This document shows, one piece after another, positions 32,801 to 64,000 of a stretch of DNA of 64,000 nucleotides. The stretch covers positions 2,480,001-2,544,000 of the forward strand of contig NZ_BBXJ01000001.1 in the NCBI RefSeq assembly GCF_001019715.1, given 5' to 3'. A program made the translations under genes and the position numbers. The notes beneath the pieces are model-generated. The model was not told the origin of the DNA, made no database searches, and was given only the letters and a program-made list of their open reading frames with translations. The DNA comes from Rodentibacter caecimuris. GTDB lineage: Bacteria > Pseudomonadota > Gammaproteobacteria > Enterobacterales > Pasteurellaceae. Position 1 is the first letter of the stretch. Each line of letters opens with the position of its first letter.

Positions 32801-35800
32801 TTCCAACTTTCACGCTACCGTTTTCGGTTAAGTTCAGGTCTTTGGCGAGTTTCACGCTTAAATTGCCGTCTTTGTTGATGACACCGAGGTTGTTATCCGT
32901 CAATTTCGCTTCATCGTTGACGCCACCGGTAATGTTTAGGATTTCGCCGAGTTTCTTCGCAATTTCTTCACCCTTATCACCTTTGAATTTCAAGCCGTCA
33001 TCTTTGGTTGCAATTTCACGCGTTTTGGTTGTTCCGTCCGGATTGGTGGTGTTGTACACCAAACGCTCAATGCCTTTACCACCTTTATCGTCGGTATCTA
33101 AGGTACCTGTTCCGTTAGCAACAGTAATATTAGCCGACGCATTTTTGCCGTCCGCACCTTTTGGACCGGTTAAGCCGATTGAACCGTCTTTACCGTTGAT
33201 CACAACAGATGAACCGTCTTTACCGTTCACGCCGATAGAACCGTCCACACCATCTTTACCGTCTTTACCTGCCTGACCAACTGTAATGTTATTTGATGTA
33301 GCAATCTCATAACCATTCGCAATTTGTTTAATAACAATATTGTTACCCGCATCTAATGTGAAGGTTTCATTGTTAGTCAACTGCTTGTCATTATCAGATA
33401 AATTGTCCGCTACCGTAGCATTACCATTAGTATCAGCGACTGATTTTGTTGCAAGATTGAATTTAACACCGCTTAACGCTGTGTTGGTAATATCTTTAGT
33501 TGCATTTTGTAAGTCGCCTACATTGACAGCATTCTTCAAGGCATCACCGGAGATATTATTTAACACATCATTAAAGGTTTTATCTACCGGAATAGTTGCG
33601 CCGTTTGGTAATACGCCGCTATCTACATTAGTAATTAATACCGGTGTAGAAGCATTGCCGCCGATAAATTTCACTGTGTTACTCGGTACGCTAGTAAGTG
33701 TGCCATTACTATCAACATAACTATTTGTAGTGTTAAAGGTAATGTTGGTTGTACCTGTTGCATTGTCATAAACTGCGTTAACCGATACACCTGTACCATT
33801 ATTAAAGTTCACCGTATTACCGTGTGTTACAAAATCAACCGCTTGACCGTTGTTTTGTAAGTTCCAACCGGCATTCAAGACATCGCCTACCGTCGCGGCA
33901 TTATTTTTCTTATCCTCATAATTTGTGGTATTCGGATTAGAGGTGGTTGTATTCGTAACATTATCTAAATTACCTTTTACATTGGTAATGGTTGTATTGC
34001 CGGCATTGAAACCATCTTTATTGATCGTTAAATCACCGATTGTTACGCTACCGTTTTCGGTCAGATTCAAGTCTTTCGCCAATTTAACGGTTAAATTACC
34101 GTCTTTGCTGATAACGCCGATATTATTATCGGTTAAGACATCTTTATTCGCACCACCGGTAATGTTTAGGGTAGAACCTAATTTCTTCGCAATTTCATCA
34201 CCGCTGTCGCCTTGGAACTTCAAGCCGTCATCTTTGGTTGCGATTTCGCGGGTAGTGATTGAGCCGTCCGTGTTAGTGGTATTGTAAACTAAACGGTTAA
34301 TGCCATCACCACCGTGAGTTGCGTTATCTAAAGTACCACTACCGTTTGCAACAGTGAAGTTCGCTGATGCGCCGTCTTTACCGTTGATGCCAATTGTGCC
34401 GTCTTTACCATTGAGCACAACAGATGAACCATCTTTACCATTCACACCGATCGTGCCATCTTTACCGTCTTTGCCGACAGTAACATTGGTAAAGCTTACA
34501 TTTTCCGCCGTGGCAATTTCATAACCATTATCAACTTGTTTAACCAGAATATTGGTGCTTTGATTTAGGTTAAAGGTTTCATTGTTATTGATACGTTTGT
34601 CTTTGGCCTGTGTTGCATCACCATTAGTTGCAAGCTCGAAGCCTGAATTTGCAATCGCCGTATAGAGCTGACCGCCGTTAACAGCCTCTTTACTGTCTTG
34701 GGCAACTTCACCATCCGCAACATTGGTAATTTTCTTATTACCGGCATTAATACCATCAATAGTCACATTTGGCCCACCATTAATAGTTAAGCCATTATCA
34801 TTGACTGTGGTATTGCCGATTGTAACGCTACCGTCTTTAGTCAAATTTAAGGTGTTATTGAGATTGACTTTTACTTTACCATCTTCAATTGTCGTATTGA
34901 GATTGCTGTTGCCGCCAACCACTTCAATTACATCACCTAATTGGTGGGTTACATTATTACCGTCTTGTGCTTTTAAGCCGAAACCTTTGCGCGCTTTGTC
35001 AATCGCATCAGTTGCGTTAGCATCTAAACCAACAGTGATATTGCTTCCATTTACAGCCGTAGTGGTATAGTTACTACCGACAATATCAAAACGTCCGCCG
35101 TTGGTAACATTAATTCCCGTAGCTGTATTATTTTGATCCGCGCCAACCGTAAAGTTTTGAATTGCATTATCAATTTTATCTTTCGCTGTTTTGCTTAAAT
35201 CAAAGCCAATCTCACCATTTTTAGCAGTCGTATTAATATAATCCGAACCTTTGAAAGTGATTTCATCACTTAATTTATTCGTTCCGTTACCTGTATCAGC
35301 TTTATATTTTAAGCTCACATCTCCGGTAAGTTTGCTCATATTGACAGACAAGTCATAATTTTTTGGTTGCGTTCCATTTGGCGTTACCATTACGCTACCA
35401 TCTGTTGAAGTAACAGTTGTACGACCATCGTCCACATATTTTTTGGTTGTCGCATCATTATCTGCAATCGGCGTACCGACATTAGTAATGTTATTACCAC
35501 CAAAATCGACTTTACCACCGTTTCGAACCGTTAAATTTCCGGTATCCACAGAACTAAAGTTAGGTGTTAATGAAGTGGCAATAGTTACTTTCTTAGCAGC
35601 TTGAGTAATATTGATGTTATCACCCGCTTCAATAGTAACTGTTTCACCCATGGCAACTTTTTCAGTTGTATTATTAGAAACATTACCTGTGCCTGATTTA
35701 GATGTGGTGAGATTCCAACCTTTCGCTACTTCATTGCTGATATTAGTTACATTTTGGTTAGTTGCATACAACTGGCTACCATTTACCGCATCTTTGCTGT

Positions 35801-38800
35801 TTTCCGCAATATCGCCGTCTTGAACGTTGGTAATTTTCTTGCTACCCGCATCAATACCTGCTTTAGTAATATTCGGTCCGCCGTTAATGGTTAAGCCATC
35901 TTTAGTCAGATTAACATCACCAATTTTTACATTACCGGCATCGGTCAAATTGAGGCTGTTATTTAAGTTAATCTTAACTTTACCGTCAGCCACTGTAGTA
36001 TTTAGGTTGCTGTTACCGCCTTCAATCTCGATCGCTTCACCTAATTGTTTGGTAACATTGCTACCATCTTGTGCTTTTAAACCAAAGCCTTTGTGTGCTT
36101 TTTCAATCGCTGAAGTCGCATTTTGATTTAGTGCAACCGTGATATTTTTACCGCTCACATTGGTTTCGATGTAGTTGCCGTCTTTGCCGACAATATCAAA
36201 ACGTCCGCCGTTCGTAATATTTAACCCTGTTGCTTGGTTATTTTTATCAGCTCCTACGGTAAAGTTTTGAATTGCATTATTGATTTTATTTTTAGCAGTA
36301 TCACTTAAATCAAAGGCAATTTGTCCATTTGAGGCATTGGTCGTAACATAATCAGAACCTTTAAACTTCACGGTTTCACTTAATTTGTTTTCACCGCTAG
36401 AGTTATTGTCGCCGGAGTATTTAAATTTCACATCTTCAGCAACTTTAGTCATATTCACGGACAAATCGTAATTTTTCGGATTTGTGCCTGTGCCGTTTAC
36501 TGTTACGCTACCGTCCGTGGAATTCACTGTCGTACGACCATCATCCACATATTTTTTGGTTGTCGCATCATTATCTGCTACCGGCGCACCAACATTAGTA
36601 ATGTTATTACCACCAAAATCGACTTTACCACCGTTTCGAACCGTTAAATTTCCGGTGTCCACAGAAGTAAAGTTAGGCATTAATGAAGTGGCAATAGTTA
36701 CTTTCTTAGCGGCTTGAGTAATATTAATATTGTCACCCGCTTCAATGGTAACTGTTTCACCCATGGCAACTTTTTCAGTTGTATTATTAGAAACATTACC
36801 TGTGCCTGATTTAGATGTGGTGAGATTCCAACCTTTCGCTACTTCATTGCTGATATTAGTTACATTTTGGTTAGTTGCATAAAGCTGGCTACCGTTTACT
36901 GCATCTTTGCTGGTATTAGAAATTTCACCTTCAGACACATTAGTAATCTTCTTATTACCCGCATCAATACCGCCTTTAACGACTTTAGGGCCATCATTAA
37001 TGGTTAAACCTGTGCTGTTTAACGTTGTATCGCCTAACTTAACGCTACCTGCATTTGTTAAATCAAGAGTATTGTTTAGAGTGACAGAATAATTTTTACC
37101 GCCGGTATCATTTGTTGTATTTTGAGTAACAATTAAATTAGAAGTGGTTGAATTAACACTTTCTTCTTTTTTAAGCTGATTTTTTGCCTCATCAGAAAGA
37201 TCAACCGAGTAATTTGTTACATTATTTGCACCAACTGTCTCCGTTACTTTTACTTTGTCAGACCCGTTGGTTACCGTAGATTTATCGGCATTTACCGTGT
37301 AAATAGTCTGATTATTAGCCCCTTTGTCTTCAGTAACATTAACGTTATTACCCGCTTTCACTTCAGTTTTTGAAGCTGCCGCTGATGCGTTTAATTGACT
37401 TAAGTTCACCGCATCAGTGCCGTTTGTACCATTCGCGACGTTAGTGATTTTCTTATCACCTGCGTTGATACCTTCTTTGGTAACTTTAGGTCCATTATTA
37501 ATGGTTAAACCAGTGCTGTTTAATACGGTATCACCTAGTTTGACACTACCTGCATCGGTGAGATTTAGGGTGTTGTTTAAATTAACTTTAACCTTACCAT
37601 TATCAACGAGGGTGTTAATATTCGAGTTATTGCCCTCAATATCAATGGTATTCCCCACCTTTTTACTAACATTGCCGTTTTGCGTATTTAAACCAAAGGT
37701 TGCTTTGTCACTTAAATCAAAGGAAACCGTGCCATTTTCTGCTTTCGTGGTGATTAAATTAGAACCTTTGAAATTAACACGATTACTCAGTGAATTTTCG
37801 CCCTGTGTATTATTATCACCTGAATATTTTAATTTCACGTCATTGGCAACTTTGGTCATATTCACTGAAAGATCATAATTCGCCGGATTTTGACCGCTCT
37901 TTGTGACATTTACACTTTTATCGGTAGAATTGACCGTCGTACGACCGTCATCAACATATTTTTTGGTTGTCGCATCATTGTCGTTAACCGGCGCACCAAT
38001 ATTCGCTAAAACATTACCACCAAAATTCACATTGCCGTTTGGTCGAATGGTTAAATTACCGGTATTGACACTACTAAAGTTAGGCGTAGAAGAGGTAGCA
38101 ATAGTGACTTTTTTACCTGATTGAGTAATGTTGATATTATCACCGGCATCAATCGTAACGGTGTCGCCCATTGCAACTTTAGTTAAATTACTACCGCTTA
38201 CATTACCCGTACCGGATTTAGAAGTCGTTACATTCCAACCTTTTGCAACTTCATTTTTTAGATTGGTTACATTATTACTTACATTCGTAACATTTTGATT
38301 AGTTGCATGAAGCTGACTACCGTTTACCGCATCTTTGCTATTCGCACCAATTGTACCGTCAGACACGTTAGTAAGTTTTTTATTACCCGCATTAATTCCG
38401 GTAGTAGTTACACTTGGGCCATTATTAATGGTTAAACCTGTGCTGTTCAGATTAGTATTGCCAAGTTTTACATTTCCGTTATTACCCAAATCCAAACTAT
38501 TATTTAAGTTGATCTGAATTTTCCCGTTAGCAACAGTAGTATTAATGTTACTATTGCCGCCAATAACATCGACATACTCACCTAGTTTTTTATTAACCGT
38601 CTGATTATCTTGTGCTTTTAAGCCAAAACCTTTGGCAATATCCCTTGCATTATTGGTGATATTTTGCGCATTCTTAGTAATGTTTTGCGCATTTTTGCTC
38701 ACATTATCAATGGCTTCTTTAGATTTTTGTGATAAATCTACTTTGATACTGGTGCCATCAACGGCTGTAGTAAGATAGCTTTCGTTACCGCTAACAATGT

Positions 38801-39668
38801 CAAAGCGTTTTTGATCTTTAGTGACATTAATACCCGTAGCATTATGATTTTTATCAGCACCTACCACAAAATCGGTCAAGCCACTACTTACATTATCTAA
38901 AGCCCTCACTACGGCATAAAGTTGCGAACCATTGATCGCATCGGTAGAATTGCTCGCAACGCGACCGGCTGCTACATTTTGAATTTGGCGATACTGATAT
39001 ACCCAATTGGAACTACCACTACTCGTTCCACCTTGGCCAAATAAAGAGCCTGAACCAATGGATAATACGGATGTATTTTGTTTATCAGTCGTTGGTTGTC
39101 CTGCATAAGTATAGGTATTACCTCCTATCGTTATGCTTTTCGTTTCATTACCGGTATTTAGAGGTCCAGATACAGAATATGCGCCCAATGAAACACTACC
39201 AGCTGGCGCTTTGTCTACACTTCTAACAGCTGCAGAACGTCCTAACGCAACAGCTTCAATAGTGTTACCAATGTATGCAGCGCCACCAATAGCGATAGAA
39301 CCTCTTGCATCAAATCTGTTTGCGCTAGCAGGATCACTAACAGCACCGCTCCCAACTACACGAGCTCTGGTTGTACGAGATTCATAGCCACCTTGGATAC
39401 CACCTAACACCCCTGATTCACTAATCGCGATCGTACCGTAAGGCGCAGTTCCACCCTCAACAGCCGCCATAGATAAGCTAGCAGATCCAACTGCTAATAA
39501 CGCTACAGCTATCTTGGATAAACTAAAAGATATCTTCTCTTTTGCTGATTTGCTCCCAACTACATCCGAAAATAATGAACTTGATTTACTATACCCTTTC
39601 GCTAACTCAGATACAGCCACCCAAGCGCTAATTGATTGGTTCCAAATTACTTTAAATATTTTATTCAT
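26829..39668 (-). CDS. Giant trimeric autotransporter adhesin (YadA/Hsf type) with collagen-like blocks
   Basis: 4279 residues. The N-terminus MNKIFKVIWNQSISAWVAVS is an extended signal peptide region of type V secretion, with likely cleavage near residue 69 (SMA-A). A YadA-like head follows (repeats of the SIAIGGAA / AVALGRSA / SVSLGAYS kind), then a first neck (STDAINGSQLYAV, near 240). The stalk repeats necks (SKDAVNGSQLYATNQNV), GWNL Trp-ring-type modules (NAGWNLQNNGQAVDFV occurs three times) and seven Gly-X-Y-like blocks such as GLTGPKGADGKDG. The last ~75 residues are the trimeric YadA anchor (GVGVGYQW end), preceded by a short coiled coil. It would form a long surface fibre for adhesion. 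Asn-X-Ser/Thr sequons are extremely frequent. The frame is open throughout, so the gene is intact. The Shine-Dalgarno AAGGAAA precedes ATG 39668. Promoter-linked TAAA repeats suggest phase variation. Confidence 0.96.
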   Translation of the reverse strand: MNKIFKVIWNQSISAWVAVSELAKGYSKSSSLFSDVVGSKSAKEKISFSLSKIAVALLAVGSASLSMAAVEGGTAPYGTIAISESGVLGGIQGGYESRTTRARVVGSGAVSDPASANRFDARGSIAIGGAAYIGNTIEAVALGRSAAVRSVDKAPAGSVSLGAYSVSGPLNTGNETKSITIGGNTYTYAGQPTTDKQNTSVLSIGSGSLFGQGGTSSGSSNWVYQYRQIQNVAAGRVASNSTDAINGSQLYAVVRALDNVSSGLTDFVVGADKNHNATGINVTKDQKRFDIVSGNESYLTTAVDGTSIKVDLSQKSKEAIDNVSKNAQNITKNAQNITNNARDIAKGFGLKAQDNQTVNKKLGEYVDVIGGNSNINTTVANGKIQINLNNSLDLGNNGNVKLGNTNLNSTGLTINNGPSVTTTGINAGNKKLTNVSDGTIGANSKDAVNGSQLHATNQNVTNVSNNVTNLKNEVAKGWNVTTSKSGTGNVSGSNLTKVAMGDTVTIDAGDNINITQSGKKVTIATSSTPNFSSVNTGNLTIRPNGNVNFGGNVLANIGAPVNDNDATTKKYVDDGRTTVNSTDKSVNVTKSGQNPANYDLSVNMTKVANDVKLKYSGDNNTQGENSLSNRVNFKGSNLITTKAENGTVSFDLSDKATFGLNTQNGNVSKKVGNTIDIEGNNSNINTLVDNGKVKVNLNNTLNLTDAGSVKLGDTVLNSTGLTINNGPKVTKEGINAGDKKITNVANGTNGTDAVNLSQLNASAAASKTEVKAGNNVNVTEDKGANNQTIYTVNADKSTVTNGSDKVKVTETVGANNVTNYSVDLSDEAKNQLKKEESVNSTTSNLIVTQNTTNDTGGKNYSVTLNNTLDLTNAGSVKLGDTTLNSTGLTINDGPKVVKGGIDAGNKKITNVSEGEISNTSKDAVNGSQLYATNQNVTNISNEVAKGWNLTTSKSGTGNVSNNTTEKVAMGETVTIEAGDNINITQAAKKVTIATSLMPNFTSVDTGNLTVRNGGKVDFGGNNITNVGAPVADNDATTKKYVDDGRTTVNSTDGSVTVNGTGTNPKNYDLSVNMTKVAEDVKFKYSGDNNSSGENKLSETVKFKGSDYVTTNASNGQIAFDLSDTAKNKINNAIQNFTVGADKNNQATGLNITNGGRFDIVGKDGNYIETNVSGKNITVALNQNATSAIEKAHKGFGLKAQDGSNVTKQLGEAIEIEGGNSNLNTTVADGKVKINLNNSLNLTDAGNVKIGDVNLTKDGLTINGGPNITKAGIDAGSKKITNVQDGDIAENSKDAVNGSQLYATNQNVTNISNEVAKGWNLTTSKSGTGNVSNNTTEKVAMGETVTIEAGDNINITQAAKKVTIATSLTPNFSSVDTGNLTVRNGGKVDFGGNNITNVGTPIADNDATTKKYVDDGRTTVTSTDGSVMVTPNGTQPKNYDLSVNMSKLTGDVSLKYKADTGNGTNKLSDEITFKGSDYINTTAKNGEIGFDLSKTAKDKIDNAIQNFTVGADQNNTATGINVTNGGRFDIVGSNYTTTAVNGSNITVGLDANATDAIDKARKGFGLKAQDGNNVTHQLGDVIEVVGGNSNLNTTIEDGKVKVNLNNTLNLTKDGSVTIGNTTVNDNGLTINGGPNVTIDGINAGNKKITNVADGEVAQDSKEAVNGGQLYTAIANSGFELATNGDATQAKDKRINNNETFNLNQSTNILVKQVDNGYEIATAENVSFTNVTVGKDGKDGTIGVNGKDGSSVVLNGKDGTIGINGKDGASANFTVANGSGTLDNATHGGDGINRLVYNTTNTDGSITTREIATKDDGLKFQGDSGDEIAKKLGSTLNITGGANKDVLTDNNIGVISKDGNLTVKLAKDLNLTENGSVTIGDLTINKDGFNAGNTTITNVKGNLDNVTNTTTSNPNTTNYEDKKNNAATVGDVLNAGWNLQNNGQAVDFVTHGNTVNFNNGTGVSVNAVYDNATGTTNITFNTTNSYVDSNGTLTSVPSNTVKFIGGNASTPVLITNVDSGVLPNGATIPVDKTFNDVLNNISGDALKNAVNVGDLQNATKDITNTALSGVKFNLATKSVADTNGNATVADNLSDNDKQLTNNETFTLDAGNNIVIKQIANGYEIATSNNITVGQAGKDGKDGVDGSIGVNGKDGSSVVINGKDGSIGLTGPKGADGKNASANITVANGTGTLDTDDKGGKGIERLVYNTTNPDGTTKTREIATKDDGLKFKGDKGEEIAKKLGEILNITGGVNDEAKLTDNNLGVINKDGNLSVKLAKDLNLTENGSVKVGNVNLTKDGLTIANGPSVMGDGINAGDKKITNVTAGTLSADSKDAVNGSQLYATNQNVTNISNEVAKGWNLTTAQSGTGKVSGNTTEKVAMGETVTIEAGDNINITQSGKKVTIATSNNITVGAAGKNGQDGVDGTIGVNGKDGSAVVINGKDGSIGLTGPKGADGKNGAGIALNGKDGTIGINGKDGASANFTVKDGSGTLDETGKGKEGITRLVYNTTNTDGTTTTREIATKDDGLKFKGDNGNEIAKKLGETLNIIGGVNDEAKLTDNNIGVINKDGNLTVKLAKDLNLTENGSVAIGNVTLNKDGFNAGNTTITNVTSNLDPVANNTTSNPDSTGNKYANVTNNAATVGDVLNAGWNLQNNGQAVDFVTHGNTVNFKNGQGVKVGTTYNSTTGTTDITFNSTNSYVDDNGNATAEPTNKVKFIGANASAPVAITNVDSGVLPNNATIPTGQTFNDVLNNLSGDALNNAVNAGDLKNATKDITNSTLSAVGFALTSKAVANTNGQSSEKDGLSEADKRLTNNETFTLDAGNNVRIKQIENGYEVATAENVTFTNITVGKDGKDGVDGTIGVNGKDGASVVLNGKDGSIGLTGPKGKDGKDGASANLTVVNGTGTLDETGKGKEGITRLVYNTTNTDGSTTTREIATKDDGLKFKGDNGDEIAKKLGETLNITGGLTDSNKLTDNNLGVVNQAGSLVIKLAKDLNLTKDGSLTIGNTTLNDNGFTLVGGPNVTTSGIDAGDKKITNVSDGDVSNNSKDAINGGQLYTAITNSGFNLTTKSVAGTNGQASADGLSDEDKRLANNETFTLDAGNNLVIKQIANGYEIATANNITVGAAGKDGKDGVDGSIGVNGKDGASVVLNGKDGSIGLTGPKGADGKDGVSANISVKDGAKGLDGNDGKNGESKTRIEYVKPNGDKETVATLNDGLKFKGDDGKEIAKKLNETLSITGGADKDKLTDGNIGVNNNNGTLEVKLSKDLNLTENGSVTIGNVTINKDGFNAGNTTITNVKGNLGNVTNDTKSNPDTSGNKYQNITNNAATVGDVLNAGWNLQNNGQAVDFVTHGNTVNFNNGTGVSVNAVYDNATGTTNITFNTTNSYVDSNGALTNVPSNTVKFIGGNATAPVLITNVDSGVLPNGTLISGNDTFNDVLNNITGDALKNAVNVGDLKNATKDITNTTLSAVGFALKSAKVAGSNGVVETADDLSEEGKRLTNNETFNLNAGNNIVIKQINDGYEIATSNNITVGKDGKDGVDGKIGVNGKDGASVVLNGKDGSIGLTGPRGADGKDGASVNITVANGTGTLDTDDKGGKGIERLVYNTTNADGSTTTREIATKDDGLKFKGDNGEEIAKKLGETLNITGGVTDPTKLTNDNIGVTNENGNLSVKLSKDLNLTKDGSVTIGNTTLNDKGLTIAGGPSVTIDGIDAGNKRITKVADGVDPTDAVNLSQLNRSMAAAKTEVTAGKNVNVTSSTGANNQTIYTVNAEKSVVKGSDSVKVTANRDEANFTTTYDIDLSDEMKKQIAKEESVSTGDTNVKVVANGTNASGGKDFAVSLNKDLNLTKDGSVTIGGTTLKEGNLTMGNTTVGNDGLTIKDGPSITQNGINAGNKVVNNVADGDISPNSKQAINGGQLHTAIANSGFNLATNGQDTATDKRINNNDTFNLNQGNNIVVKQIDNGYEISTGNNLVIGEKGEPGQNGQPGKDGVDGSIGVNGKDGSSVVINGKDGSIGLTGPKGSDGKDGVSANISVKDGAKGLDGNDGKNGESKTRIVYEKPNGQTEEVATLNDGLKFKGDDGKEIAKKLNETLNITGGANGKLTDKNIGVVNEGGNLTVKLAENITLGDNGSVNIGNTTVNNDGLTIKGGPSVTTSGINAGNKVISNVAPGVKPTDAVNKAQLDQVRGDVYNVNNRVDKLDKRVRGIGANAAAAASLPQVMLPGKSMVAAAASGYSGASAVALGYSRASDNGKVILKLTGTANSAGHYSGGVGVGYQW
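27510..34490 (-). repeat. Seven collagen-like repeat blocks inside the adhesin gene
   Basis: Blocks rich in GKDG, VNGKDG, GSIGLTGPKG triplets lie near 34.35-34.49, 33.14-33.29, 32.22-32.44, 30.98-31.14, 30.09-30.31, 28.93-29.09 and 27.51-27.73 kb. Several are nearly identical at DNA level, alternating with longer units that carry TREIATKDDGLKF and KKLGETLNITGG. Such long near-identical units favour recombination and make short-read assembly risky. Confidence 0.85.
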
Positions 39669-44336: not shown

Positions 44337-46712
44337 ATGAAAAACAATAAGAAAAATGACCGCACTTTTAAACTGAGTTTAGTAGCCATGGCGTTAAGTA
44401 TGACGAATTTGGCATGGGCTGGTGAGGTGGCTTGTAATAATAGTCGTGTTGAGATTATCGGACAAAATGGAGCTATGCTAAATAACTGTGTAATCGATCA
44501 ACCCGCTAAATACGGGAAAATCCACATCGAAAATAGCCCAAATACGGTTGTCAATAATACCCAAATTTCTGTTCCAAATGATATATTTTCAGGTATCCAC
44601 ATTATGAATTCTAATGTAGAGCTCAATAATGTAACTTTATCCGCAACGCTTATTGAAGCGAAACAAATAAGCCAAGTCGCAGTTGAAGCAATAAACTCGG
44701 CTGTGAATATTAATGGGGGACACTATAAAACAGAGACCACTCAAGAAACAAGTGAAGCCTTTCGTTTAAATAATTCTACTTTAAATGTAAAAAATGCAAC
44801 CATTTCCCTCAGTGGAGAAGCCGGTAGTGGTTTATCATTAGAAAATAATAGCATTGCCAATTTGGAGAATGTCACAATTACCGCAATCAATGGAGCAGAT
44901 GCAGTATTTTACGATGCAGACAACAATAATACCCGCTCAGGTATTAATATTTCGAATTCCACATTAAAAGCAGATGAAGTTTTATTTGGAATGGTTACAA
45001 GTGCCGATCAAAATACTGAAGGTCGATTCCGGGTGAATATTAATAATTCAATATTCGATGCACCTAGAATTATTAGAGCAGAAACCGATATTGTGGATGG
45101 TTTTTCTATCACTGAAAATATTACGTTCACAGCCAGTAATAGTAAATTAACCGGTTTAATGAATGTTGAGGATAATAAAAGTAAGCTCGACGTAACGTTA
45201 ACGAATTCCACTTGGACAATTAAACCATATTTTTATGAAGATGAAGAAGAGGAAAGTGAATTACATTCTGCCAGCGTGACAAATCTTGCACTTAACAATA
45301 GCGTGATAAATTTGGAACAAACCGATGATTTCCAAACCCTCACCATCAAAGGTAACCTCACAGGTTCAGGCATATTTAATCTCAATACCAATATCGCAGA
45401 AAACAAAGGTGATAAAATTATTATTGAAGGGACTGCGGAGGGCAATCACAAACTAGGGGTGAAAGATCACGGTGTAGCAGCCGCAAATAAAAAATTGACT
45501 CTCGTTGAAACAAACGGCGGGAACGCAAAATTTAACTTAACTACTCCAAATAACCGAGTGGATTTAGGTGCATATCAGTATTTCCTAACCAAAGAAGGAA
45601 ATAACTGGGTCTTGGCGAATTCACAAAGTGTGATCACGCCACCAACAACACCTAATGTACAACCGGAAACACCAAGTACGCCGACAACGCCGGAAAATCC
45701 TAATATACAACCAGAAATACCAAGCACACCAACAGCTTCAACAAATCCGAACGTGCAGCCGGAAACGCCAGGCATACCAAATCCATCGGTCGTACTGCCG
45801 GTCAAGCCAATTCAACCAAGCAATCCGACATTGCCAAGTTCACCATTACTTAGCAATTTAGCCAATGCGCAAGTCTCGCTCCGTCAAGCCCAATTATTGC
45901 TGGTAGAAAGCGAACTCAGCGGTATTCATCAACGTTTAGGCGATATGAAAAACGGCGAAAAAGGCAATGTGTGGGTGCGTAATGTGAATTCTCGTAAAAA
46001 ATTGACCGCACTTTCTACTGGTGATAGCCAAACTTCAGGCTTTAAGCAAAATGTTCATAGCTTACAATTAGGAGCGGATGTTGCCGTGAAGGATAATTTC
46101 CGTCTGGGCGGGTTTATTGGTCGCAGCCAAGCCGATGTTGATTTCAACGGTAATTACGGTGATGGCAAAGTACGCAGCAACAGCGTGGGCTTATACGCTA
46201 CTTACCTCGCCGATAACGGTATTTACATGGATAACATTGTGAAATATAGCCGTTTGAAAGCTCAATCCGATCACACGGAAAAACGCCATTACAACGCTTA
46301 CACAGTATCAAGCGAGCTCGGTAAACAATTCAAATTGAGTGGTGATTGGATAATTACACCACAAGCGCAATTAGCTTGGACGCACATTCAAGGTAAAGAG
46401 AATGAAGATAGCCTTTCTTCCATTTACTCTCGTGTCGGCTTGCGTGTGGCGAAAAATTTTGCTCTAGCCAACGGTTGGAACTTGCAACCTTATGCGGAAA
46501 TTAATGCTATTACAAGTCGCAATAATAGTAGCAAAGTTCATTATGCAAACGCTGCGCTTAATGTTGAAGATAGCCGCAGACGTTTTGAAAGTATTCTGGG
46601 CGTGAATGCAGGGATAACCGACCATCGCATCGGTTTAGAAATTAGCCGAGCTGACGGAAAACGTTACGATAAACCTTATCAAATTCAAGCAGTATATCGC
46701 TATCAATGGTAA
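44337..46712 (+). CDS. Pertactin-like classical autotransporter (type Va)
   Basis: 791 residues. A signal peptide (LSLVAMALSMTNLAWA-G, cut near 29) is followed by a beta-helical passenger rich in Asn-Ser-Thr turns (NISNSTLKADE, NNSTLNVKNATISLSG). Three 16-residue Pro-rich repeats of the type PNVQPETPSTPT lie near 439-486, then a linker helix (LANAQVSLRQAQLLLVESELSGIHQRL) and a C-terminal 12-strand barrel ending YRYQW. The layout matches pertactin-type adhesins. No serine protease motif was seen. Many N-X-S/T sequons occur. An uptake signal sits within the first codons (44359-44367) and another in the barrel (46005-46013). Confidence 0.9.
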   Translation: MKNNKKNDRTFKLSLVAMALSMTNLAWAGEVACNNSRVEIIGQNGAMLNNCVIDQPAKYGKIHIENSPNTVVNNTQISVPNDIFSGIHIMNSNVELNNVTLSATLIEAKQISQVAVEAINSAVNINGGHYKTETTQETSEAFRLNNSTLNVKNATISLSGEAGSGLSLENNSIANLENVTITAINGADAVFYDADNNNTRSGINISNSTLKADEVLFGMVTSADQNTEGRFRVNINNSIFDAPRIIRAETDIVDGFSITENITFTASNSKLTGLMNVEDNKSKLDVTLTNSTWTIKPYFYEDEEEESELHSASVTNLALNNSVINLEQTDDFQTLTIKGNLTGSGIFNLNTNIAENKGDKIIIEGTAEGNHKLGVKDHGVAAANKKLTLVETNGGNAKFNLTTPNNRVDLGAYQYFLTKEGNNWVLANSQSVITPPTTPNVQPETPSTPTTPENPNIQPEIPSTPTASTNPNVQPETPGIPNPSVVLPVKPIQPSNPTLPSSPLLSNLANAQVSLRQAQLLLVESELSGIHQRLGDMKNGEKGNVWVRNVNSRKKLTALSTGDSQTSGFKQNVHSLQLGADVAVKDNFRLGGFIGRSQADVDFNGNYGDGKVRSNSVGLYATYLADNGIYMDNIVKYSRLKAQSDHTEKRHYNAYTVSSELGKQFKLSGDWIITPQAQLAWTHIQGKENEDSLSSIYSRVGLRVAKNFALANGWNLQPYAEINAITSRNNSSKVHYANAALNVEDSRRRFESILGVNAGITDHRIGLEISRADGKRYDKPYQIQAVYRYQW
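45651..45794 (+). repeat. Three tandem 48-bp repeats encoding a Pro-rich spacer
   Basis: Units begin at 45651, 45699 and 45747, exactly 48 bases apart, each coding PN(V/I)QPE(T/I)P plus eight residues. They form the hinge between passenger and barrel. In-frame unit loss or gain would change spacer length without breaking the frame. Confidence 0.8.
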
Positions 46713-51888: not shown

Positions 51889-52392
51889 TTATTTTAGTAA
51901 TGATTCGTCAAGGGTAAGATCAGAATTCTTATTCACACCAACCCCTCGAGCAATGATATTTTTGGCAATCTCGTGCGCTTCATCAAGAGAATGTTCCGTA
52001 TAAGTGCCGCATTGGTAAATATTTAATTCCGGAATTGCCGTTTGATCTTTCACGTTTAAAATATCCTGCATCGCAGCCAACCACGCCTGCGCCACCTGCT
52101 GTTCGTTCGGAGTACCGATTAATGACATATAAAAACCGGTACGGCAACCCATTGGAGAAATATCAATAATTTCCACACTCTCACTATTTAAATGATCGCG
52201 CATAAAGCCGGCAAACAAATGCTCAAGGGTATGGATCCCTTTTGGCGGCAGAATTTCCTTGTTTGGAATACAGAAACGTAAATCAAAAATTGTGATGTCA
52301 TCGCCCTTTGGCGTTTGCATTGTTTTGGCAATACGCACGGCCGGTGCATTCATTTTCGTGTGATCCACTTTAAAACTATCAAGTAACGGCAT
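51889..52392 (-). CDS. luxS: S-ribosylhomocysteine lyase (autoinducer-2 synthase)
   Basis: 167 residues from ATG 52392, which follows AAGGAAA; a longer reading from 52476 is upstream sequence. LuxS cleaves S-ribosylhomocysteine to homocysteine and DPD, the AI-2 precursor. The metal-binding HTLEH is at 54-58, the catalytic cysteine at about 83 (MGCRTGF) and a third ligand region is QCGTYTEHS. It heads a luxS-purT transcript. A candidate sRNA is transcribed divergently just upstream. Confidence 0.97.
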
Positions 52393-52416: not shown

Positions 52417-52445
52417 GTTGTAAATTTTCTTCAAGAAATTGTCAA
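52417..52445 (-). promoter_or_regulatory. luxS promoter
   Basis: On the minus strand a perfect -35 TTGACA (52445-52440) and TACAAC (52422-52417) are 17 bases apart. Transcription would start near 52410, leaving a leader of about 18 bases. It does not overlap the divergent sRNA. Confidence 0.6.
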
Positions 52446-52462: not shown

Positions 52463-52489
52463 GAACTTTTCTGCAAAGCCTTAGTCTTA
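52463..52489 (+). promoter_or_regulatory. Candidate sigmaE-type promoter divergent from luxS
   Basis: GAACTT (52463-52468) and TCTTA (52485-52489) are separated by 16 bases. This fits the sigmaE pattern (GAACTT, 15-17 bases, TCTNA-like). A sigma70 reading is poor here. The rpoE gene for sigmaE is in the same window (63.7 kb). Confidence 0.6.
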
Positions 52490-52494
52490 TAGAG

Positions 52495-52569
52495 TAAGCA
52501 ACTTGCAGTTGTTTAATAAAATTGGTTCCTTAGGTTATTCGCCCTTCACTTGCTGAAGGGCATTTTTTT
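52495..52569 (+). ncRNA. Candidate MicA-like small RNA next to luxS
   Basis: A ~75-base transcript is predicted from the sigmaE-type promoter to an intrinsic terminator (GCCCTTCA / TGAAGGGC, 52541-52548 and 52554-52561, then seven Ts). The 5' end folds into CAACT-TGC-AGTTG. The middle is AU-rich and unpaired, suited to Hfq, with UUCCUUA complementary to Shine-Dalgarno sequences. No ORF with a ribosome site is present. MicA of enteric bacteria is also sigmaE-driven, 70-75 nt, and lies just upstream of and divergent from luxS. I see no match to the MicA seed, so homology is open. It is not the yqaA terminator: the minus strand lacks a T run after the stem. Confidence 0.55.
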
Positions 52570-52574
52570 GCATT

Positions 52575-53051
52575 TTATAATAAGAACGCCGTACTTAAAA
52601 ACAATAACAGTGTATAACGTGCTAATTTACCAAGAAAAATAAATAAACAGCTTGCTGCAAAGTTTAGACGTAGCCAGCCCGCAATAGCACAAAATAAATC
52701 GCCTACAACAGGTAACCAGCTCAATAATAATGCCACCGCACCATAACGTTGAAGTTTTTCCATTATCCATAAAGTGCGGTCATTTTTGCTTTCAAATTTA
52801 GGAAACCAACATCCAATCGCATAGGTCGTAAGACTTCCCAAAGTATTTCCCAACGTGGCAATAAAAATAAGCCCCAAAACATCCGCACTTAAGAGCAGAT
52901 TGAGGGTTAATTTAGGGATAGCCAATGTCATAAACACAATTTCCGAATTACCGGGCAATACCGTAGCACTTAAAAAAGCACTGGCAAACATCAACCAGAG
53001 TGCGTGATTCTGCCAGAAATCAGCCCAAAAGCTAAAGGAAAACCAATCCAT
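52575..53051 (-). CDS. yqaA: YqaA-family small inner-membrane protein (DedA/VTT type)
   Basis: 158 residues with four to five hydrophobic helices. The VTT-domain signature is seen in SAFLSATVLPGNSEIVFM, TLGNTLGSLTTYAIGCWF and LLSWLPVVGDLFCAIAGWLR. DedA relatives move lipids or help keep the proton-motive force, but YqaA itself is uncharacterised. In E. coli yqaA-yqaB lie near luxS and micA, and the same neighbourhood is partly kept here. It is two bases from the acetyltransferase gene. Confidence 0.88.
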   Translation of the reverse strand: MDWFSFSFWADFWQNHALWLMFASAFLSATVLPGNSEIVFMTLAIPKLTLNLLLSADVLGLIFIATLGNTLGSLTTYAIGCWFPKFESKNDRTLWIMEKLQRYGAVALLLSWLPVVGDLFCAIAGWLRLNFAASCLFIFLGKLARYTLLLFLSTAFLL

Positions 53052-53053
53052 CG

Positions 53054-53653
53054 CTAGATATCCGGCCGATAAGTCCGAATATAATATTCACGATCCTGTT
53101 CGGTAATTTCACGCACGATACGGCAAGGGTTACCAAACGCAAGCACGTTATCCGGCAGATCTTTACTGACCACACTACCCGCACCAATAACAACATTATC
53201 TCCGATAGTAACCCCTGGCAAAATCACCACATTGCCACCAACCCAAACATTATTGCCGATGGTGATCGGCCTTGCCTGTTCCCAGCCAATATTACGCAAT
53301 TCCGCATCTAAAGGATGTCCCACCGTATAAAGGCTAACATTGGGTGCGAACATCACATCGTCACCAATGGTAATTCCGCCATTATCTAACATCACACAAT
53401 GGTAATTCGCAAAAAAATTTTTTCCGACTTTAATATTTATCCCGTAATCACAATGAAAAGGTTCATTAATGGAGGTAGTTTCATCGGCCTGACCAAACAA
53501 CTTTCTAATCAAGTTATTTTGCATTTCCTCATCATTTGGTGAAGTGCGGTTAAACTCAAACAAAATTTCCCTTGCACGTTGGCGCATCACCGTTAATTCG
53601 GATTTCATCGGCAAGTGAGCCAAACCCGCCATCATTTTTTCATATTCCGTCAT
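53054..53653 (-). CDS. Maa/LacA-type sugar O-acetyltransferase (hexapeptide repeat)
   Basis: 199 residues. An N-terminal helical cap (EYEKMMAGLAHLPMKSEL) is typical of maltose and galactoside acetyltransferases. Hexapeptide left-handed beta-helix turns follow (GITIGDDVMFAPNVSLYTVGHP, WVGGNVVILPGVTIGDNVVIGAG). The catalytic His is in VGHPLD. It acetylates sugars with acetyl-CoA in a trimer; the natural acceptor is unknown. It is inserted between yqaA and yqaB with gaps of two and three bases. Confidence 0.9.
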   Translation of the reverse strand: MTEYEKMMAGLAHLPMKSELTVMRQRAREILFEFNRTSPNDEEMQNNLIRKLFGQADETTSINEPFHCDYGINIKVGKNFFANYHCVMLDNGGITIGDDVMFAPNVSLYTVGHPLDAELRNIGWEQARPITIGNNVWVGGNVVILPGVTIGDNVVIGAGSVVSKDLPDNVLAFGNPCRIVREITEQDREYYIRTYRPDI

Positions 53654-53656
53654 TAT

Positions 53657-54256
53657 TTATGCCTTAATGATTTGGTGAGAACGCACATCAAATACGTCCA
53701 TTCCTGCGCTAAGCCCTGCCTGAATGCCTAAATCCGCATCCTCAAATACAATGCAGTTTATCGGATTCACCCCGGTTAATTCCGCACAACGTAAAAACGT
53801 TTCCGGATGCGGTTTGTGTTCTTTTACATCGTCGGCACTGACAATCGCATTAAAATAAGGCGCAATGGCAAGTTTATTCATTAACATATCGATCAAATGG
53901 CGGTGAGAACCGGAACCAAGCGAAATCGGTTTTTTCCGATAATAGTGTCGAACAACCTCAAAGGTAGGAAGCAATTTGGATTCAGTTGGGATAAGCTGAT
54001 AGGAAAGCGCCCGTTTCGCCTCAATCACCTCATCAAGATGGCGTTGTGGCATACCGGCTTTTTCCATAATCGCCAAGGCAATGGTTCGCACCGTAGCACC
54101 GCCTAGCTGATACATAATTTGGCTGTCAAAATCATAGCCGAATTGCTCACCCACCATTCCCCAAGCACGAGCATGTACCGGCATTGTGTCAATCAATGTG
54201 CCATCCATATCAAAAATCAACCCTTCATAGCGGTCGAAAAGTGCATTGTCTATCAT
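53657..54256 (-). CDS. yqaB: YqaB-type HAD-family sugar phosphatase / beta-phosphoglucomutase-like
   Basis: 199 residues. HAD motifs in order are: DMDGTLIDTMPVHARAW (I, nucleophile Asp near 17), LGSGSHRHL (II) and HKPHPETFLRCAELTGV with VFEDADLGIQAGLSAGM (III/IV). In E. coli YqaB dephosphorylates fructose-1-phosphate and 6-phosphogluconate. It is the first gene of the yqaB-acetyltransferase-yqaA run that heads towards luxS. Confidence 0.9.
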   Translation of the reverse strand: MIDNALFDRYEGLIFDMDGTLIDTMPVHARAWGMVGEQFGYDFDSQIMYQLGGATVRTIALAIMEKAGMPQRHLDEVIEAKRALSYQLIPTESKLLPTFEVVRHYYRKKPISLGSGSHRHLIDMLMNKLAIAPYFNAIVSADDVKEHKPHPETFLRCAELTGVNPINCIVFEDADLGIQAGLSAGMDVFDVRSHQIIKA

Positions 54257-62109: not shown

Positions 62110-63063
62110 TTAGTTACCGAAAAACCGCACTTCCTGCACAATGCGCTTGGCGGTAGCAATAGGTAATTGTCCAATAAAGGTGATTTCTTTGTCGCCGACC
62201 ACCTCGCTATACAGGGTATATTCGCCTTGTTTCCACACTTGATCGGGATTTAATTGTTGCCCTTCTGCCTTGGTGACATATAACGTGAAAGTAAACAAGC
62301 CATCACTAAATAAACTGCTGTCAATCGTTTCTCCGTCAAATAAATCCTGACTGTGGCGAAGACTTTCAAACCCTTTCGGCAACCAGCTTGGTTTCCAGTT
62401 TAGAGAAGAAACTGCATTTTGTGTTTCATTTAATAACGGTGGCATGGAAACTTTATTTAAATACTCAGTTAATCCTTTTAAGCGATCATCAATATAAAGA
62501 GTGACTACACGGAACTGATTAAGCAATTTACCATCTCTATCAAGCATATCGCCACGCAATAATAAGCCGTTTTCTTCATCGACAAAAACCAAATATTGGT
62601 AGCGAAAATCATCTTTCGGCACAATACGGACAGTATCGACAAAACGTCCGGCAACGCGGCTTTTCCCTAAGGGGATAAAATCATAGTTTTCCGCTAATTT
62701 ATTAAAATTACTACGAATCACTGCCGGTAAAGCATCAACAATGCTTCCGCTGTTCAATGTAAAAGCCCGTGAATCCAATTGGAAATAGCTCACTAAATTA
62801 TCACGCTGAATTATTTCTTTCTGATCGCCGTCCAATGTGACAAGCTGTGCGTAAATTTTGTTATCCCGTTTGATATGTCGATAACGGAAAGAATCCATAT
62901 TAGAAGGCGACGTTTGCACAAAGGCAATTTCGTAATTGAGATTATTCACCGCATTCGCCATTTTTTCCAACGTTTTCTTTGCTGAAAGTTCTCCTGCAGA
63001 AACAGAAAAGCTAAACAAAGCTATAAGCAAAAGTGCGGTTAATTTGAAGGCGTTTTTTTTCAT
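62110..63063 (-). CDS. rseB: RseB, periplasmic regulator of sigmaE
   Basis: 317 residues with a signal peptide (FKLTALLLIALFSFSVSAG) and the MucB/RseB fold: an N-terminal LolA-like domain (EIAFVQTSPSNMDSFRYRH, FQLDSRAF) and a C-terminal domain (WKPSWLPKGFESLRHSQD). RseB shields RseA from the protease DegS and senses lipid or LPS intermediates. It follows rseA by 77 bases. No rseC follows; a terminator does. Confidence 0.94.
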   Translation of the reverse strand: MKKNAFKLTALLLIALFSFSVSAGELSAKKTLEKMANAVNNLNYEIAFVQTSPSNMDSFRYRHIKRDNKIYAQLVTLDGDQKEIIQRDNLVSYFQLDSRAFTLNSGSIVDALPAVIRSNFNKLAENYDFIPLGKSRVAGRFVDTVRIVPKDDFRYQYLVFVDEENGLLLRGDMLDRDGKLLNQFRVVTLYIDDRLKGLTEYLNKVSMPPLLNETQNAVSSLNWKPSWLPKGFESLRHSQDLFDGETIDSSLFSDGLFTFTLYVTKAEGQQLNPDQVWKQGEYTLYSEVVGDKEITFIGQLPIATAKRIVQEVRFFGN

Positions 63064-63140: not shown

Positions 63141-63725
63141 TTATTTTACTTGATGAGTACCGATATTCAAGGTATCGGCATGCATACGACGCTGTAATTC
63201 ATAGTTTTGTAACATTGCGCCGATACGCCGATTTTTTTGTTCCATTTGATCAGCTGTTGCCACATCTTTAGTCGGCGCATTATAGCTGACTTCTTGGACT
63301 GCATTATTAAACGGCAATGTTTGTAAAACCGGAGTTTCCGGCGCATTATTTACGTCATTTTTTGCATTAAATGACTGCACGCCAAGCACGGCGACTAAAC
63401 ATACGCCGGCTGCGACAGCAATTTGAGCCATTGGCGCAAAGAAAGACTTAAATTTACGCATAAACGGCAAACGTTGTGTTTCTTCAGGTGTTGGCTGAGA
63501 TTGTGTGATTTCAACTCTTTCGATTTCTTCATGTTCAATTAAATCGGCCATTTTTGCGGTAAAATCAGCCCCTAAAATAACCGCACTTTCTTTACGCATG
63601 ACTGCACGAGCCACATGATACGTTGCCCAAGACTGGCGTAAAGATTCATTTTTACACAATTCCTCTGTGAATGCTGCATCCACTTGCTCGCCATCCATAT
63701 AGGCTGAAAGTAACTCTTTTTGCAT
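63141..63725 (-). CDS. rseA: RseA, anti-sigmaE factor
   Basis: 194 residues from ATG 63725 (MQKELLSAYMDGEQVDAAF), which has GGAG at good spacing. A second possible start at 63743 overlaps the rpoE stop (TAATG) and would add six residues. The cytoplasmic sigma-binding domain comes first. One transmembrane helix (FAPMAQIAVAAGVCLVAVL, about 92-112) and a periplasmic tail that DegS and RseP would process follow. It pairs with rpoE upstream and rseB downstream. Confidence 0.94.
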   Translation of the reverse strand: MQKELLSAYMDGEQVDAAFTEELCKNESLRQSWATYHVARAVMRKESAVILGADFTAKMADLIEHEEIERVEITQSQPTPEETQRLPFMRKFKSFFAPMAQIAVAAGVCLVAVLGVQSFNAKNDVNNAPETPVLQTLPFNNAVQEVSYNAPTKDVATADQMEQKNRRIGAMLQNYELQRRMHADTLNIGTHQVK

Positions 63726-63742
63726 TTTAAACTCCGACTTCA

Positions 63743-64000
63743 TTAACGTTGCATAAGCGGTTGTATTTTGTTTTCGATAATTTCACGCGCACGGAAAATT
63801 CGAGAACGCACAGTGCCTACGGGACAGTTCATAATTTCTGCGATATCTTCATAGCTTAATCCTTCTAATTCACGAAGGGTAATCGCACTCTTTAAATCTT
63901 CCGGCATACCGTTAATCGTATCAAATACGATTTTTTCCAGTTCGTCGGATAACATTTCATTTTCCGGCGTATCCACATCACGAAGATGAGTTCCCACATC
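63743..64000 (-). CDS. rpoE: RNA polymerase sigmaE factor, C-terminal part (runs off the window)
   Basis: Only the last ~85 codons are present, and the start lies beyond 64000. Region 4 is visible: ITLRELEGLSYEDIAEIMNC with PVGTVRSRIFRAREII, the -35 recognition helix-turn-helix that reads GAACTT. The frame stays open to the window edge. A GTG at 63997 is an internal valine, not a start. SigmaE drives the outer-membrane stress response and, by inference, the candidate sRNA beside luxS. Confidence 0.95.
   Translation of the reverse strand, partial: DVGTHLRDVDTPENEMLSDELEKIVFDTINGMPEDLKSAITLRELEGLSYEDIAEIMNCPVGTVRSRIFRAREIIENKIQPLMQR

Follow-up and report, generated by a model that had tools for sequence, protein, structure and literature searches.

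Several small RNAs (sRNAs) described in other bacteria and in Pasteurellaceae are close to the one analyzed here. RybB, VrrA and MicV have been described as sigma-E outputs that repress the mRNAs of outer membrane proteins (OMPs) (PMC7602753), and MicA as an antisense RNA overlapping the 5' untranslated region of luxS (PMC4618604). In Pasteurellaceae, JA04 was reported as one of four Fur-regulated RNAs of Aggregatibacter actinomycetemcomitans, with orthologues across many members of the family (PMC4144887), and the Rfam 13.0 paper likewise reports it as Fur-regulated. For a strain of non-typeable Haemophilus influenzae (NTHi), the former study describes JA04 as neither expressed in mid-log phase nor regulated by Fur, with no predicted Fur box close by (PMC4144887). 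Rna01 of Actinobacillus pleuropneumoniae, for which a length of 86 bp is reported, has been described as associated with Hfq and was detected on Northern blots, and its deletion raised ompP2B (p < 0.10) and altered the OMP profile (PMC9577009). Our search of the open-licence literature found no paper connecting JA04 with sigma-E or luxS, and JA04, luxS, rpoE and MicA are all absent from the text of a Histophilus somni paper on Hfq and sRNAs (PMC10204968).

We propose, with a probability of roughly 0.75, that JA04 serves this part of Pasteurellaceae as its principal envelope-stress sRNA under sigma-E, situated at the locus that carries micA in E. coli, presumably transcribed by sigma-E and presumably repressing OMP mRNAs.

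The RNA Beside luxS and Its Identity

The original prediction described a sigma-E-type promoter followed by a 5' stem (CAACT-TGC-AGTTG), an AU-rich middle and a strong terminator, in a stretch free of open reading frames. Each of these elements was recovered at its position, the stem at 52499-52511, in the 64-kb stretch of DNA of a rodent-associated bacterium analyzed as a whole (the window), and no + strand reading frame of at least 40 amino acids was found overlapping the unit. The features of the locus are as follows.

51889-52392, - strand: luxS, the divergent neighbor (71% identity to E. coli LuxS; PF02664)
52463-52489, + strand: sigma-E-type promoter, with the -35 box GAACTT at 52463-52468, a 16-nt spacer and the -10 box TCTTA at 52485-52489
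52496-52569, + strand: JA04 sRNA unit of ~73 nt (Rfam RF02732 match), with the presumed 5' end 7-9 nt past the -10 box and the 3' end at the T run
52498-52512, + strand: 5' hairpin GCAACU-UGC-AGUUGU, from the fold, its pairs conserved
52520-52539, + strand: conserved single-stranded core AAUUGGUUCCUUAGGUUAUU, the presumed seed, from the alignment of JA04 copies
52526-52534, + strand: UUCCUUAGG within the core, common to JA04 and Rna01
52541-52569, + strand: intrinsic terminator, from sequence, terminator search and fold; 8-bp stem GCCCTTCA/CTTGC/TGAAGGGC (stem-loop 52541-52561, loop CTTGC) and T run (TTTTTTT, 52563-52569)
52575-53051, - strand: yqaA homologue (VTT/DedA-like), convergent with the sRNA (44% identical to its E. 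coli counterpart YqaA across 129 aligned columns; PF09335; no NCBIfam match)
53054-53653, - strand: gene separating yqaA from yqaB, for a protein resembling maltose/galactoside O-acetyltransferases (its NCBIfam equivalog scores fall short of the cut-offs)
53657-54256, - strand: yqaB homologue, a HAD phosphatase (44% identity to E. coli YqaB; above the cut-off of subfamily TIGR02009, below that of the YqaB-type equivalog NF008000, 194 vs 215 bits)

From the -10 box TCTTA, 8 nt lead to GCAACTTGCAGTTGT; an AU-rich part that includes AATTGGTTCCTTAGGTTATT follows, and the terminator with its seven T closes the unit. The luxS frame on the - strand can be extended mechanically to a TTG start at 52476; this is not likely to be the N-terminus, as LuxS aligns with E. 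coli LuxS from 52392.

The Rfam model of JA04 (RF02732) matched the window at 52498-52578 over its full length (model positions 1-81 of 81), with 83.6 bits against a gathering cut-off of 81. By its sequence, the element beside luxS is the already catalogued sRNA JA04. A match to RprA at the same locus (21.3 bits, cut-off 70) was taken as chance.

Conservation of JA04 and of Its Promoter

At an E-value of 0.01, RF02732 was found in 95 of 140 Pasteurellaceae genomes (53 over the cut-off) and in none of 14 control genomes. Hits of at least 43 bits were kept for counting, which gave 117 copies in 93 genomes of 24 genera; six weaker hits were dropped beforehand, and two genomes (G031 and G083) had only such hits. 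One record carrying the JA04 core, CABDVE010000001.1, is titled Pseudomonas stutzeri NCTC11607 and is probably a mislabelled strain.

In the predicted fold of the window copy (-19.1 kcal/mol), 26 nt lie open between the 5' hairpin and the terminator. Of 200 shuffles of the 75-nt RNA, 197 folded less well and 3 equally well (z -2.31). In an alignment of 29 sequences, one row of which (g17) is apparently misaligned at the hairpin, its pairs were kept in 95.8% of cells, with no two-sided change and a covariation score reached by 302 of 500 shuffles. The hairpin is conserved as sequence, and covariation is not its support. A terminator was detected in 115/117 copies, with 49 different versions of its 5' arm, in line with the sRNA-sized, terminated unit that had been claimed. 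Within the core, UUCCUUA is near-invariant (of the 115 terminator-bearing copies, 89 have AATTGGTTCCTTAGGTTAT), and the bases flanking it on both sides are nearly as conserved as UUCCUUA itself.

The strict promoter pattern GAACTT-N15-17-TCTTA matched once in the window, against 0.06 expected by shuffling. The looser GAACTT-N15-17-TCNNA was at chance level (1 match, 1.67 expected), and the window alone is therefore no proof of a promoter. Across the family, a GAACTT-N16/17-TCTTA-like promoter, called with at most one difference from TCTTA, precedes 103/117 copies and is found at one copy or more in 92 of the 93 genomes. Exact GAACTT occurs in 102 of these 103, with a spacer of 16 in 86 and of 17 in 17. 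When one copy per genus was taken (22 genera), the -35 box, the -10 box and the adjoining T and G reached at least 0.77 per column, against only 0.32-0.64 for the commonest base in the 14 columns inside the spacer. Selection of this set had used the two boxes but not the adjoining bases, and both of these, T behind GAACTT and G ahead of TC, were invariant. The strict-pattern statistics and this recurrence upheld the sigma-E class assigned to the promoter, and the anticipated conservation of the GAACTT box and terminator upstream of luxS was found across the JA04-bearing genomes of the family. Because it is conserved, we regard the element as real, the JA04 match and the family-wide promoter being the decisive evidence.

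The genes of the sigma-E system lie close by. rpoE straddles the right edge of the window (63752-64315), ~11 kb from JA04, and is followed inside it by rseA (63141-63743) and rseB (62110-63063). The host rpoE is itself preceded by GAACTT-N16-TCAGA, as read by eye.

A Core Shared with Rna01

The A. pleuropneumoniae Rna01 sequence, located in one genome (G004) by its published primer, reads ...CATTTCCTTAGGTAAG... and has UUCCUUAGGU in common with JA04. This recurrence, together with the near-invariance described above, supports the suggestion that UUCCUUA is a pairing element. Of the features of the Rna01 type, JA04 has the UUCCUUAGG core under a sigma-E promoter and lacks the Rna01 5' region. 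The 23-nt primer itself (up to 3 mismatches) matched 1/140 genomes and is absent from the genome under study.

A sigma-E promoter followed at 25-55 nt by TTCCTTAG was found in 114/140 genomes, representing 33 of 43 genera, compared with 3/140 for the reversed pattern. By reading the matched strings by eye, we assigned 29 of the 114 to the Rna01 type; these do not overlap with the 93 genomes that have JA04, and no genome with both types was found among the 140. Together, the two types cover 122/140 genomes. Exact matches to the 19-nt core pattern also occur in two contigs of one Patescibacteria bin and in one Solobacterium bin, perhaps by chance or contamination.

luxS was found in 40 of the 47 genomes without a JA04 hit of at least 43 bits. 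At 30 of these 40 luxS loci, neither a sigma-E promoter nor a TTCCTTA core was present within 420 nt upstream of luxS. Since these loci lack both and the Rna01 type exists, the sRNA is not tied to luxS everywhere.

The luxS-yqaA Locus and MicA

The gene order in the window is luxS(-), JA04(+), yqaA(-), the acetyltransferase gene(-) and yqaB(-); that of E. coli K-12 is luxS(-), micA(+), gshA(-), yqaA(-) and yqaB(-). JA04 is divergent from luxS in 92/93 genomes, the gap between luxS and the closest copy having a median of 94 nt (range 56-263). In 72/93 it is also convergent with a detectable yqaA, which was not detected beside JA04 in the remaining 21/93. The claim of a MicA-like position divergent from luxS was thus borne out in a stronger form than it had been made, as the locus corresponds to the luxS-[sRNA]-yqaA-yqaB arrangement of E. 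coli. The micA promoter of E. coli reads GAACTC-N16-TCTGA. On the - strand of the window, TTGACA-N16-TACAAC (52418-52445, read by eye) is a candidate luxS promoter that would start luxS short of JA04.

The MicA model (RF00078) gave no match over its cut-off in the 140 genomes, with the E. coli control found and a single weak match of 30.8 bits against 41; in the genome under study it gave none, and a scan of the locus up to an E-value of 5 was also empty. The alignment of JA04 with MicA was equalled by 3 of 500 shuffles when the terminators were included and by 114 of 500 when they were left out. Membership of the MicA family was rejected, given the lack of a model match and of detectable similarity outside the terminator, and the original statement that there is no obvious seed identity with MicA holds. 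JA04 is MicA-like by locus and promoter and, by sequence, is not a MicA.

Could JA04 nevertheless be a true MicA orthologue, derived from one ancestral luxS-yqaA sigma-E sRNA whose seed and body have been replaced since the split? The order and strands of the two loci agree apart from gshA and the acetyltransferase gene, the promoter class, 16-nt spacer and length class are alike, and JA04 keeps its luxS neighbor, frequently with yqaA, across the family. Against this stand the failure of the MicA model in all 140 genomes, the terminator-free alignment that nearly a quarter of the shuffles equalled, the existence of Rna01 as a second sigma-E type, and the 30 luxS loci bearing neither promoter nor core. 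We regard orthology as possible and somewhat doubtful; the two RNAs may instead have arrived at this locus independently, the convergent origin named in the original prediction. By its switch, its position and its conserved pairing motif, JA04 is likely to correspond in Pasteurellaceae to MicA, the envelope-stress RNA of E. coli.

Second Copies and a CpxR-Like Box

Two JA04 copies were present in 24/93 genomes. Both are of the sigma-E kind in Haemophilus (g19), Volucribacter, one genome of the H. parainfluenzae group and one Rodentibacter genome; the second copy has no sigma-E promoter in g3 (A. seminis among its members), Avibacterium, Caviibacterium and Necropsobacter. The JA04-bearing Haemophilus genomes carry one or two copies beside luxS. 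One further genome (G033) has a sole copy of the non-sigma-E kind. The two sigma-E-type copies of the Rodentibacter genome (G121) are separated by ~1.35 kb, whereas the pairs of other genomes are close tandems. In one Haemophilus genome (G062), one of the two copies has an altered core (GGTTACTTAAG) and no recognizable terminator, and is apparently a decaying duplicate.

All 14 non-sigma-E copies have GTAAW-N5-GTAAW in the 110 nt that precede them, its start lying 44-69 nt from the RNA, where dinucleotide shuffling gave an expectation of 0.045 copies. The strict form GTAAA-N5-GTAAA occurs in 9 of the 14; the CpxR site has been given as GTAAA-N4-8-GTAAA (PMC5890194). The box also precedes 9/103 copies of the sigma-E kind, from three of these genera only, and may thus partly act on luxS or on the sigma-E copy. 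CpxR-like proteins (match at 1e-50) are encoded by all 14 genomes with a non-sigma-E copy and by 133/140 overall, which makes the presence of CpxR uninformative as a predictor of a Cpx-type twin. The one Avibacterium genome without the twin (G026) has a CpxR match of only 46%, compared with 67-72% in the six Avibacterium with it. Two cases run counter to this: the twin is present in G012, where CpxR is no more than a fragment, and the sigma-E copy of G026 has GTAAA-N5-GTAAA upstream. The Pfam CpxA domain matched 17/140 genomes and is too divergent for mapping Cpx. On the luxS tree the Cpx-type twin requires five changes (4-6), at least two of them forced, and a single origin was not shown.

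These patterns could be joined in one history. A luxS-yqaA sigma-E sRNA predating the split would be ancestral to MicA and JA04, with promoter, place, strand, length and terminator kept and the pairing part replaced; a duplication in Pasteurellaceae would then have let one twin pass from sigma-E to CpxR in several genera with a near-identical seed, and elsewhere the seed would have moved to a new body and locus, giving Rna01. We offer this history tentatively and consider it, taken whole, rather unlikely.

Predicted Targets

A strict search for CCTAAGGAA-N2-14-ATG in 24 genomes, with one match inside JA04 itself excluded, gave matches in 22, and no gene recurred across genera among the loci examined. 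We also compared predicted duplexes at 148 gene starts. In this exploratory comparison, based on a small sample (184 kb, made up of the window plus six further 20-kb pieces of its genome) with starts guessed by script and only part of the 148 annotated, the six β-barrel OMPs that were recognized showed stronger pairing than the remaining 142 starts (p 0.036, Mann-Whitney; 2/800 sRNA shuffles were as extreme), the grouping having been made after some of them were visible in the ranking. The set excludes one candidate that proved to be a lytic transglycosylase. The duplex energies were -15.7 for a pertactin-type autotransporter at 44337, -14.3 each for OmpW and FadL/OmpP1, -13.3 for a YadA-type adhesin, and a poor -8.7 and -7.4 for LptD and TamA, respectively.

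Two genes of the window were noted for themselves. The Shine-Dalgarno stretch of the pertactin-type autotransporter gene (44337-46712, +) is predicted to pair with the JA04 core at 10 positions in a row, and a YadA-type trimeric autotransporter adhesin (26829-39668, -) has 4279 amino acids with collagen-like repeats.

By duplex, the ompA of the same genome ranked 35/149 and the one of its four porins that was tested 24/149. For this ompA, 169 of 1000 sRNA shuffles were as good. Across 18 genomes of 15 genera, which cover 18 of 20 ompA loci, the fraction of shuffles that did equally well had a median of 0.15 and was below 0.05 in 2 genera. ompA was thus set aside as a target, its leader being conserved and its pairing not significant. 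Just upstream of the Shine-Dalgarno sequence, GATGACTAA or ATGACTAA is retained in most of the 20 ompA leaders, possibly as a site for binding RNA or protein. For porins, fewer than 0.1 of the sRNA shuffles were as good in 18/20 genomes, with failure in genus g11; the set comprised 20 of the 21 JA04-bearing genomes among 30 porin loci, G110 (a 1163-aa frame) being excluded. This porin signal is weak, because any AAGGAA site favors the JA04 core. Overall, target prediction gave a weak and mixed picture.

JA04 might instead act mainly on transcripts other than those of OMPs, with UUCCUUAGG as a general blocker of Shine-Dalgarno sites. The core does resemble an anti-Shine-Dalgarno sequence able to pair with AAGGA sites generally, and the five strongest predicted duplexes among the 148 starts are not OMP-like. 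However, a general blocker would not need the bases on both sides of UUCCUUA, which are conserved almost equally, and OMPs are enriched in the exploratory comparison and are reported to change when Rna01 is deleted (PMC9577009). We therefore consider such a general role unlikely and prefer the repression of OMP mRNAs.

Fur Regulation and Other Alternatives

As first described in A. actinomycetemcomitans, JA04 would be an iron-responsive sRNA repressed by Fur, and the two reports of Fur regulation cited above (PMC4144887 and the Rfam 13.0 paper) speak for this. In 12 copies (four each from Aggregatibacter, Rodentibacter and Haemophilus), a 19-bp Fur box was searched in the 120 nt upstream and the first 10 nt of the RNA, and its best match was equalled by 127-300 of 300 shuffles. 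The Aggregatibacter promoter is also of the sigma-E type, in 9/9 copies over 43 bits, with a spacer of 17. The reported NTHi results show neither Fur regulation nor a nearby Fur box (PMC4144887); silence in mid-log phase together with non-Fur status is compatible with a stress RNA. Repression by Fur as the main control of JA04 thus appears quite improbable to us. Membership of the JA04 family is unaffected, since Rfam membership rests on sequence.

That JA04 is no separate RNA but derives from luxS or yqaA as a leader or by-product, as the short gap between them might suggest, is scarcely credible in view of its strand, opposite to both genes, its own + strand promoter and T-run terminator, its duplication in 24/93 genomes and its retention in 21/93 without a detected adjacent yqaA.

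Proposed Role in Envelope Stress

The identity of JA04, its conserved promoter, core and terminator, and its position can be read from the genomes themselves. For an sRNA of envelope stress, we propose the following course, which draws in part on Rna01 for transcription in this bacterium, sigma-E dependence, Hfq binding and target repression. Envelope stress would free sigma-E, and RNA polymerase with sigma-E would initiate at ~52496, the intrinsic terminator ending an RNA of ~73 nt. The unpaired UUGGUUCCUUAGGUU would probably be presented by Hfq bound at the A/U-rich middle and the U tail. UUGGUUCCUUAGG would then probably pair over the Shine-Dalgarno region or ribosome sites in the mRNAs of abundant OMPs and lower their translation.

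If this is correct, the regulatory label of JA04 would be corrected from iron to envelope stress, and Haemophilus, Pasteurella, Aggregatibacter and Rodentibacter would have a common sigma-E RNA. JA04 and Rna01, described separately, would be joined by one seed. The locus would also offer two natural cases of regulatory RNA evolution, one with place and promoter fixed and the seed new, and one with twins sharing a seed under two stress pathways.

Comparison with Known Systems

The window element agrees with catalogued JA04 (RF02732) in the full-length model match, 5' hairpin, core and terminator, and luxS is the neighbor in Aggregatibacter genomes too; it differs from the literature in that the label there is Fur-regulated, whereas the sequence evidence of this analysis favors sigma-E. 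HrrF (RF02728) is, like JA04, a conserved sRNA of Pasteurellaceae, but it is Fur-regulated and located at pmbA-hpt (PMC4144887). Rna01 resembles JA04 in its GAACTT-N16-TCTTA promoter, UUCCUUAGGU core, terminator and similar length. It differs in its 5' part, which lacks the GCAACUUGCAGUUGU hairpin of JA04 and has GUUUUUUUCAUUUCC before the core, and in its place between sbcB and eriC rather than at luxS. RybB, VrrA and MicV belong to the functional class proposed here for JA04 (sigma-E control and OMP mRNA repression), and their seeds and loci are not known to match those of JA04. MicA (RF00078) shares with JA04 the luxS-[sRNA]-...-yqaA-yqaB locus, the orientation divergent from luxS, a sigma-E promoter with a 16-nt spacer, a length of 73 nt and a 3' terminator. 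The two have no detectable similarity outside the terminator and differ in gshA, which in E. coli sits between micA and yqaA, and the pairing region, which lies in the 5' part of MicA, is presumably internal in JA04.
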